Part shown: positions 47,484 to 47,939 of the stretch, one piece after another
Layout of the letters: each line of letters starts with the position of its first letter
Position numbering within the stretch: the first letter of the stretch is position 1
NCBI RefSeq assembly: GCF_029229925.1
Contig: NZ_CP107254.1
Span: forward strand, 1,736,001 to 1,800,000
DNA: 64,000 nt
From: Halorhabdus sp. BNX81
GTDB lineage: Archaea > Halobacteriota > Halobacteria > Halobacteriales > Haloarculaceae
Direction: 5' to 3'
The notes under the pieces: model-generated
What the model was told of the DNA's origin: nothing
Seen by the model: only the letters and a program-made list of their open reading frames with translations
Database searches by the model: none
Translations under genes and position numbers: made by a program

Positions 47484-47558
47484 GCGGGATGGGATAGCTA
47501 GGAGATTCCGGCGGGCTCATAACCCGCAGATCGGTGGTTCAAATCCACCTCCCGCTAC
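47484..47558 (+). tRNA. Initiator tRNA-Met (anticodon CAT)
   Basis: 75-nt tRNA with acceptor stem AGCGGGA/TCCCGCT, an A1-U72 pair, and an anticodon stem GCGGG/CCCGC carrying the three consecutive G-C pairs that mark initiators. Loop CTCATAA has anticodon CAT. No intron is present, whereas I recall the haloarchaeal elongator tRNA-Met as having one. The CCA end is not encoded. It is followed by a remarkable trailer with two additional copies of its T-arm and acceptor 3' strand. Confidence 0.95.
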
Positions 47559-47563
47559 TTCTC

Positions 47564-47609
47564 AGCGAATTTACGGCGCAGAGGTGTATCTCTGCGCCAT
47601 CCTCGCTGT
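47564..47609 (+). other. Bulged trailer hairpin A after initiator tRNA
   Basis: Five bases after the tRNA a structured element begins. Outer stem CAGCGA/TCGCTG (6 bp), internal loop ATTTAC/ATCC, inner stem GGCGCAGAG/CTCTGCGCC (9 bp), and a 6-nt apical loop. The same element recurs at 47799-47844 with compensatory changes in the stems, which argues that the RNA fold itself is conserved. Confidence 0.7.
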
Positions 47610-47623
47610 GCTGTCGCCGTATT

Positions 47624-47676
47624 GGATTTGAAGCAGGAAGTGAAGCGAAAGCGGAACGACCGTGGTTCAAATCCAC
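47624..47676 (+). repeat. Inverted repeat: T-arm complement and second tail copy
   Basis: TGGATTTGAA (47624-47633) is the exact reverse complement of TTCAAATCCA (47667-47676) in the second tRNA-tail copy. The arms are 33 bases apart, enclosing a purine-rich sequence. Confidence 0.75.
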
Positions 47677-47686
47677 CTCCCGCTAT
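47663..47686 (+). repeat. Second copy of initiator tRNA 3' end
   Basis: Identical to the last 24 nt of the tRNA (47535-47558), displaced by 128 bp. It holds the full T-arm and the 3' strand of the acceptor stem with discriminator A, but no tRNA body precedes it. Confidence 0.9.
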
Positions 47687-47688
47687 TT

Positions 47689-47716
47689 TGCTGCGAACAA
47701 ATCCGTGAGCAGCAAA
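47689..47716 (+). other. Trailer hairpin with 14-nt loop (Met copy 2)
   Basis: Two bases after the second tail copy, TTGCTGC/GCAGCAA forms a 7-bp stem around the 14-nt loop GAACAAATCCGTGA. The same loop length and most of its sequence occur in the trailers of tRNA-Leu and tRNA-Trp. Loop ends GA...GA with U before the second GA fit a kink-loop, the type of fold bound by archaeal L7Ae. Confidence 0.65.
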
Positions 47717-47726
47717 TCGTATAGAG

Positions 47727-47784
47727 TGGATTTGAAATAGAGAAAGGCGAGCGAAGCGAGCGTTTCGCGTGGTTCAAATCCACC
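47727..47784 (+). repeat. Inverted repeat: T-arm complement and third tail copy
   Basis: GTGGATTTGAA (47727-47737) is the exact reverse complement of TTCAAATCCAC (47774-47784) in the third tail copy. The 36-base interval includes a GCGAAGCGAGCG-type hairpin. Confidence 0.75.
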
Positions 47785-47793
47785 TCCCGCTAC
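47770..47793 (+). repeat. Third copy of initiator tRNA 3' end
   Basis: A further identical 24-nt copy of the tRNA 3' end, 107 bp after the second copy. It is followed directly by hairpin C. Confidence 0.9.
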
Positions 47794-47798
47794 ATCTC

Positions 47799-47844
47799 GG
47801 CGAATTTACGGCCCAGAGGTTCGTCTCTGGGCCATCCTCGCTGT
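47799..47844 (+). other. Bulged trailer hairpin C after third tail copy
   Basis: Same fold as hairpin A: outer stem CGGCGA/TCGCTG (one G-T pair), identical internal loop ATTTAC/ATCC, inner stem GGCCCAGAG/CTCTGGGCC. Relative to hairpin A the fourth inner pair has flipped from G-C to C-G on both strands. The remaining bases to 47939 contain no other recognisable signal except the promoter region of the next gene. Confidence 0.7.
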
Positions 47845-47939
47845 ACTGTCGCTGTCGTGGCTTACCCCTGTTTTGAGCGGAATGAGACAGTACCTGCCTG
47901 CAAGCCCGACTTTTAGGTACCCGCCGGCGAAGGTCGACT

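Follow-up and report, generated by a model that had tools for sequence, protein, structure and literature searches.

The rtT repeats that stand behind tyrT of Escherichia coli each hold the 3′ end of the transfer RNA (tRNA) itself, and they are known from one locus in one lineage. In integrons, the R″ and R′ boxes of the cassette site attC follow the consensus RYYYAAC/GTTRRRY, and the single-stranded DNA (ssDNA) phages of the IMEX class, such as CTX, carry a hairpin attP, use the host recombinases XerC and XerD and target dif. Among archaeal integrons, none from haloarchaea are reported in PMC9668308, and tRNA tail remnants lying directly beside tRNA genes have been noted in Haloferax gibbonsii (PMC7921747). 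In this study, we examine a stretch of 64,000 nucleotides (nt), hereafter the window, from Halorhabdus sp. BNX81 (NZ_CP107254.1, positions 1,736,001 to 1,800,000 of the forward strand), which belongs to a haloarchaeal chromosome of 2.83 Mb and in which the gene for the initiator tRNA-Met (tRNA-iMet) is followed by two extra copies of its own 3′ end. With a probability of roughly 0.55, we consider that each extra tail terminates a non-autonomous integrative mini-element (a tRNA-tail cassette), and that the two stand in series, were inserted by site-specific recombination at the T-loop and belong to a family present behind most haloarchaeal tRNA genes.

Results

The 24-nt sequence GTGGTTCAAATCCACCTCCCGCTA starts at three places in the window (47534, 47662 and 47769), and each extra tail copy is preceded by an arm complementary to the T-arm, TTGGATTTGAA at 47622-47632 in unit 1 and GTGGATTTGAA at 47726-47736 in unit 2. 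A sequence-only reading of this DNA had already described three identical tails and two complementary arms. The three copies and both arms are real, but its coordinates lay one base off. The 24-mer ending in CTAC that it described has just two exact occurrences, at 47535 and 47770, and the first extra copy ends in T (23/24). The features of the locus are as follows.

47483..47558, + strand: initiator tRNA-Met gene (ARAGORN, Rfam)
47537-47557, + strand: repeated tail segment of tRNA-iMet, from the T-loop to the 3′ end, with its boundary between G and TTCAAATCCACCTCCCGCTA
47559..47685, + strand: unit 1, consisting of trailer hairpin, arm, imperfect hairpin and tail copy; the congener G001 has a homologous unit
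47575..47598, + strand: trailer hairpin, left part of unit 1, GGCGCAGAG-GTGTAT-CTCTGCGCC (fold z −3.0)
47622..47632, + strand: arm of unit 1, which pairs with the T-loop and the 3′ T-stem
47645..47652, + strand: GCGAAAGC, a GNNA-type mini-hairpin at the tip of the unit 1 hairpin (motif class PMC4686876)
47665..47685, + strand: tail copy of unit 1, GTTCAAATCCACCTCCCGCTA
47686..47792, + strand: unit 2
47690..47713, + strand: hairpin A, the spacer hairpin in unit 2 (GCTGCGAACAAATCCGTGAGCAGC), a common type that recurs behind other tRNAs
47726..47736, + strand: arm of unit 2
47751..47757, + strand: GCGAAGC, a GNA-type mini-hairpin at the tip of the unit 2 hairpin (motif class PMC4686876)
47772..47792, + strand: tail copy of unit 2
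47794..47863, + strand: trailer past the final copy, which shares homology with the left part of unit 1; its hairpin at 47810-47833 has a compensatory change

Each arm is predicted to fold with its own copy, as had been proposed from the letters alone. The RNA folds reach −23.2 kcal/mol in unit 1 and −25.5 kcal/mol in unit 2 (z −3.3 and −2.9 against shuffled sequences), and the + strand folded as DNA also exceeds its shuffles (z −2.9 and −2.8). The segments 47534-47628 and 47769-47863 match at 87%, and between them the trailer hairpin shows a compensatory change from G-C to C-G, with GGCGCAGAG/CTCTGCGCC at 47575 and GGCCCAGAG/CTCTGGGCC at 47810. The Rfam scan of the window returned two tRNA matches only, with no rtT or other family above the gathering score. 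The units are too short to hold a gene, and neither a gene, an integrase, a cargo gene nor a remnant of one lies between the tail repeats at this locus; for tRNA-iMet, the earlier statement that integrase, transposase and CRISPR genes are missing from the vicinity is likewise correct.

When the BNX81 genome was searched with the iMet stretch, five further places were found, every one of them at another tRNA gene. The 3′ flank of every tRNA gene found in this genome was read, and most of these genes proved to be followed by the same architecture; the iMet pattern is therefore far beyond chance. With at least 16/20 matches to the tRNA's own tail required within 500 nt, a cognate copy follows 24/41 tRNAs in BNX81, 20/41 in G001 and 23/42 in the congener G004, whereas non-cognate tails, taken from the remaining tRNAs of each genome, are found at this distance in 3-4%. 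R1, a covariance model of the unit hairpin, matched 34 places in BNX81 at E<1e-3, each of them behind a tRNA gene and all oriented alike; at tRNA-Val(GAC), an integrated island separates the gene from the match. The units occur in tandem series of one to four. A tRNA-Pro(CGG) gene of BNX81 (L501 1578-1651) that the RF00005 genome search had missed was revealed by the unit behind it. The R1 match at 504657 was considered as a non-tRNA site and rejected, because a tRNA-Pro precedes it.

A unit measures approximately 105-140 nt, contains no gene, and is built in the order of a T-rich start, a spacer hairpin A (e.g., GCTGCGAACAAATCCGTGAGCAGC), an arm that complements the T-loop and 3′ T-stem of the cognate tRNA (e.g., GGATTTGAACC), an imperfect hairpin B with the consensus AGTCGCAG...CGTCT, and a cognate tail copy that runs from the junction of G and TTC in the T-loop to the 3′ end of the tRNA. 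Across 117 hairpins, the identity between copy and tRNA is 0.45 at positions −3/−4, 0.79 at −2 and 0.98 at G(−1); beginning with TTC it is 1.0, and it stays at about 0.9 through to the tRNA end. Therefore, the repeat begins between G53 and T54 of the T-loop. The identity of the arm is high only at offsets 0-9, so that it pairs with about the first 10 bases of the copy, whereas the copy extends for about 20 nt, and the two are therefore not mirror duplications of one segment. The arms for this profile were chosen with at most one mismatch, which inflates the raw identities and leaves the agreement at variable offsets unaffected. At those offsets, the arm follows the tRNA-specific variants of its tail copy, a covariation that the sequence-only reading had named as a check: 26 G-G pairs of variants against 2 discordant cases were counted at offset 3 (A/G), and 16 variant copies were matched against 3 discordant at offset 5. 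Because variable linkers cause alignment A1 to misplace the arms, these counts were made by script from anchored positions. In units found by the core alone, the arm matches its own copy at 8/9 or more positions in 66% of cases, compared with 0.3% in shuffles. In addition, the stem above the T-arm shows two-sided changes in 22/48 and 27/48 sequences at two pairs.

Besides one deletion case, 172 copies were compared, of which 151 are gap-free (118 exact) and 21 carry one extra base; in 19/21 this base occupies the same T-loop position (TTCA[C]AATC and similar), and in the examples read the arm is complementary to the unextended T-loop. Some tail copies are interrupted by extra short hairpin insertions rich in the GCGAAGCGAG type (L486 11640-11840; L066; L076). 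Tip loops of the form C(GNA)G occur in 100/117 hairpins, compared with approximately 44 after shuffling, and the + strand folds better than the − strand in 70% (RNA parameters) and 62% (DNA parameters). GNA and GNNA loops such as GCGAAGC form extraordinarily stable DNA mini-hairpins (PMC4686876), and the tips are suggestive of a fold at the DNA level; because haloarchaeal DNA is rich in sequences of this kind, they are not proof of it.

The number of units at one tRNA may be zero or several, depending on the congener. The tRNA-Ile site is filled in BNX81 and empty in G001 and G004, and the sequence past the BNX81 copy (TATACCACCTTTTTACTTCGGAGGG...) directly adjoins the tRNA in G004 and nearly so in G001. 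The same clean pattern is seen at Arg-TCT, Ser-GGA and Leu-TAA, which are filled in G004 and empty in BNX81. At these sites, the flank past the last copy is the same as, or close to, the flank right behind the tRNA in the empty genome. Therefore, the units have been gained or lost as exact modules. The proposal of serial insertions into the tRNA end is accordingly supported by orthologous filled and empty sites, sharp boundaries and one to four units in series. The Pro and Gln-TTG units are identical between species, the latter with a different sequence beyond the unit, and the Lys units are mosaics between species.

The copies, which the sequence-only reading had suggested looking for downstream of tRNA-iMet in related genomes, are present in close relatives, and iMet units occur in most haloarchaeal genera sampled. 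R1 matched 26/28 haloarchaeal genomes and 0/119 others in the phylum, and in a scan of 84,980 species with an arm-independent core pattern, the 80 matches listed were all haloarchaeal. The family is restricted to Halobacteria. Four plasmid BLAST matches to plasmid-borne tRNA genes were opened, and a unit was seen in two of them; phage BLAST returned only unrelated tRNA-Met tails. Matches of 15-mers in IMG/VR were rejected as units because they look like chance. In Halorubrum and others, the core AGTCGCAGCCCG...GGAMCGTCT also stands, with other arms, in non-coding surroundings that are themselves repeated (GGCTGGGGAGGCGTGAGG ... GTGGGACTCAAAGGGGCAG; e.g., L262, L287, L299 and L325). Rfam showed no family at the core hairpin of the non-tRNA loci scanned and none common to the core loci.

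Integrase islands of the ordinary kind are also present at tRNA genes. The island at tRNA-Val(GAC) of BNX81 (9.3 kb, L486 2232-11590) encodes a tyrosine integrase and a DNA methylase, has a tail copy as attR and lies between the tRNA and an older mini-unit. In this island and in those at tRNA-Phe and tRNA-Ala of G001, the core starts vary and the right end has no hairpin. Intact units stand beyond all three islands, and the islands were therefore inserted between tRNA and unit. At tRNA-Pro(GGG) of G001, an integrated element of 4.6 kb (L482 15271-19868) encodes a 619-aa Rep-like protein (phrog_12863; weak Pfam Rep matches). At its right end, beside an assembly gap, stands a tail copy together with the hairpin's right half, and no integrase was detected inside the element. 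A chromosomal Xer-type tyrosine recombinase (G000:C1:1454429-1455487 in BNX81) is found in 28/28 haloarchaea, with one clear copy each and 48-66% identity, and scores below the NCBIfam XerA cut-off. The BNX81 genome has two Phage_integrase matches, namely this recombinase and the integrase of the tRNA-Val island. No integron integrase was found, the Xer-type recombinase scoring 20.5 against the TIGR02249 cut-off of 265.

All three tRNA genes of the window (3/3) have a unit behind them, the Trp unit being degenerate. The two further genes and their units are listed below.

3718..3803, − strand: tRNA-Leu(GAG), with a single unit of this family behind it
3586..3677, − strand: hairpin (arm 3666-3677) and tail copy (3586-3607) of the unit behind tRNA-Leu(GAG), hairpin model E 1.5e-13
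52209-52384, + strand: tRNA-Trp, intron-containing, as is usual in haloarchaea
52430..52489, + strand: degenerate unit behind tRNA-Trp, whose copy GTTCACAATCC... has the recurrent extra T-loop base

Discussion

According to the explanation that we favor, a unit would enter the T-loop at its universal GTTCRA through site-specific recombination, and the tail that it carries would restore a functional tRNA. On the element side, the substrate may be ssDNA, namely the folded + strand; its arm and tail together could mimic the double-stranded T-loop site, and such a hairpin would work like attC or the attP hairpins of IMEX phages. If the element side does fold as a single strand, this would account for the need for an arm that matches each tail. 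The enzyme might act in trans, as either the conserved chromosomal Xer-type tyrosine recombinase or one brought by visiting plasmids or viruses. By analogy, the T-arm hairpin with its C(GNA)G loops suggests an integron-like or IMEX-like recombination of folded ssDNA. A bolder form of this idea, which we hold to be doubtful, is a haloarchaeal integron-like system in which each tRNA gene is a potential attachment site for gene-less folded-ssDNA cassettes, whose hairpin would imitate the target tRNA's T-loop and which a conserved host Xer-type recombinase would insert and remove, with the extra T-loop base as a signal of polarity or locking.

Several observations weigh against recombining mini-elements. 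Differences between filled and empty sites could stem from deletion, through homologous recombination of one tail with another, instead of from insertion, and the full conservation of some orthologous units (Pro and Gln-TTG) also fits a host function. No IMG/VR contig showed arm, core and copy together with the patterns tried, and the core is present at places remote from tRNA genes as well, where its arms are unrelated. No autonomous relative with an intact hairpin was found, the sole candidate being the 4.6-kb element, which has an assembly gap at that point. Furthermore, both haloarchaeal genomes without R1 matches still have the Xer gene.

The units might instead form a structured trailer RNA that is co-transcribed with the tRNA and whose arm sequesters a decoy T-arm or acceptor strand, thus tuning 3′ processing, stability or termination. 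Stable hairpins on the + strand, covarying paired columns, the more frequent advantage of the + strand over the − strand (70% and 62%), the compensatory change in the trailer hairpin and the occurrence of iMet units across most haloarchaeal genera sampled are all in keeping with an RNA; yet presence at a given tRNA varies among congeners, several tRNAs have no units, and the copy reaches the exact 3′ end of the tRNA while the arm pairs with only about 10 nt. The sequence-only reading had listed such an RNA as a candidate; its hairpin is real, and the stem covaries, but units at a given tRNA are polymorphic within the genus, and we regard this alternative as unlikely. A guide RNA of the box C/D or H/ACA type directed at the T-loop was rejected, as inspection by eye showed no boxes and each arm finds its partner in its own copy.

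Still less likely, in our view, are attachment-site scars, that is, deletion remnants of ordinary tyrosine-integrase viruses or plasmids that had integrated at tRNA 3′ ends. This outcome had been foreseen if, among other conditions, the copies were absent from close relatives, and close relatives do have them. One hairpin and one boundary, between G and TTC, recur over about 30 tRNAs, whereas the integrase islands seen in the same genomes vary in core start and have an attR without the hairpin, and ordinary double-stranded att sites have no inverted T-arm copies. Such islands do occur here, as the 9.3-kb example at tRNA-Val(GAC) with its integrase and tail copy as attR demonstrates, and tRNA remnants adjoining tRNAs are reported in Haloferax gibbonsii (PMC7921747); however, at tRNA-Val of BNX81 and tRNA-Phe and tRNA-Ala of G001 the islands stand between the tRNA and intact units. 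It appears very improbable that slippage or unequal exchange duplicated the tRNA tail with its trailer in tandem and that gene conversion then kept the copies identical. The homology between the left part of unit 1 and the final trailer would follow from such a duplication, as would identical tail copies beside diverged spacers, and haloarchaea are polyploid, with efficient gene conversion. However, slippage leaves the inverted arm unexplained, the same core recurs at unrelated tRNAs, and the filled Ile allele contains an A- and a B-hairpin unrelated to the native trailer. A miniature inverted-repeat transposable element of the IS200/IS605 type was rejected because it is a misfit with a 20-nt copy of the target; no transposon with the unit ends turned up, although no ISfinder search was made.

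The tRNA-tail cassettes appear to represent a miniature tRNA-targeting element of a new kind, and no description of the family was found in the literature searched, which lay mostly outside subscription papers. Tiny elements that are class-wide, bound to tRNA genes and adapt their hairpin to each tRNA are new to that literature. The hundreds of natural sets of tRNA, arm and copy offer a test of folded ssDNA as an archaeal recombination substrate, and they bear on how a mobile element switches tRNA targets yet keeps the tRNAs functional and on whether mobile DNA shapes tRNA trailers. Moreover, they call for caution, because haloarchaeal annotations of a 'partial tRNA' are not simply phage scars.

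With the tyrosine-integrase islands and SNJ2-type att sites (PMC8371274, PMC7921747), the units share the tRNA 3′ end as target, its restoration by the carried copy and a direct repeat of the tRNA 3′ end flanking the insert; however, the islands span kilobases, encode an integrase, have right ends without the T-arm hairpin in these genomes and vary in the length and start of their core. The rtT array likewise consists of a tRNA followed by repeats with its own 3′ end, but it belongs to a single locus of a single lineage. SMR-A of Haloquadratum (PMC3119063) is similar in being about 110 bp long and gene-less, with inverted repeats and precise insertion into palindromic DNA, and its mobilization is unexplained; the tail units, however, finish with 20 nt copied from the target tRNA, whereas SMRs insert into IS605/PATE palindromes and do not duplicate their target. 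The proposed folded ssDNA site and host Xer recombinase would be shared, by analogy, with the IMEX phages, although these are phage elements that target dif. The tail units differ from integron cassettes in being gene-less, in having tRNA genes in place of attI and in that no integron integrase was found, and their boxes, RATTTGAA(C)/GTTCRAAT, keep the GTT of GTTRRRY with a C at its first R position. Nevertheless, the likeness to integron cassettes and attC extends to a series of modules at one site, an imperfect end hairpin that is predicted to fold as a single strand with paired terminal boxes, a basal stem formed from the recombination boxes, and a boundary next to the junction of G and TT.
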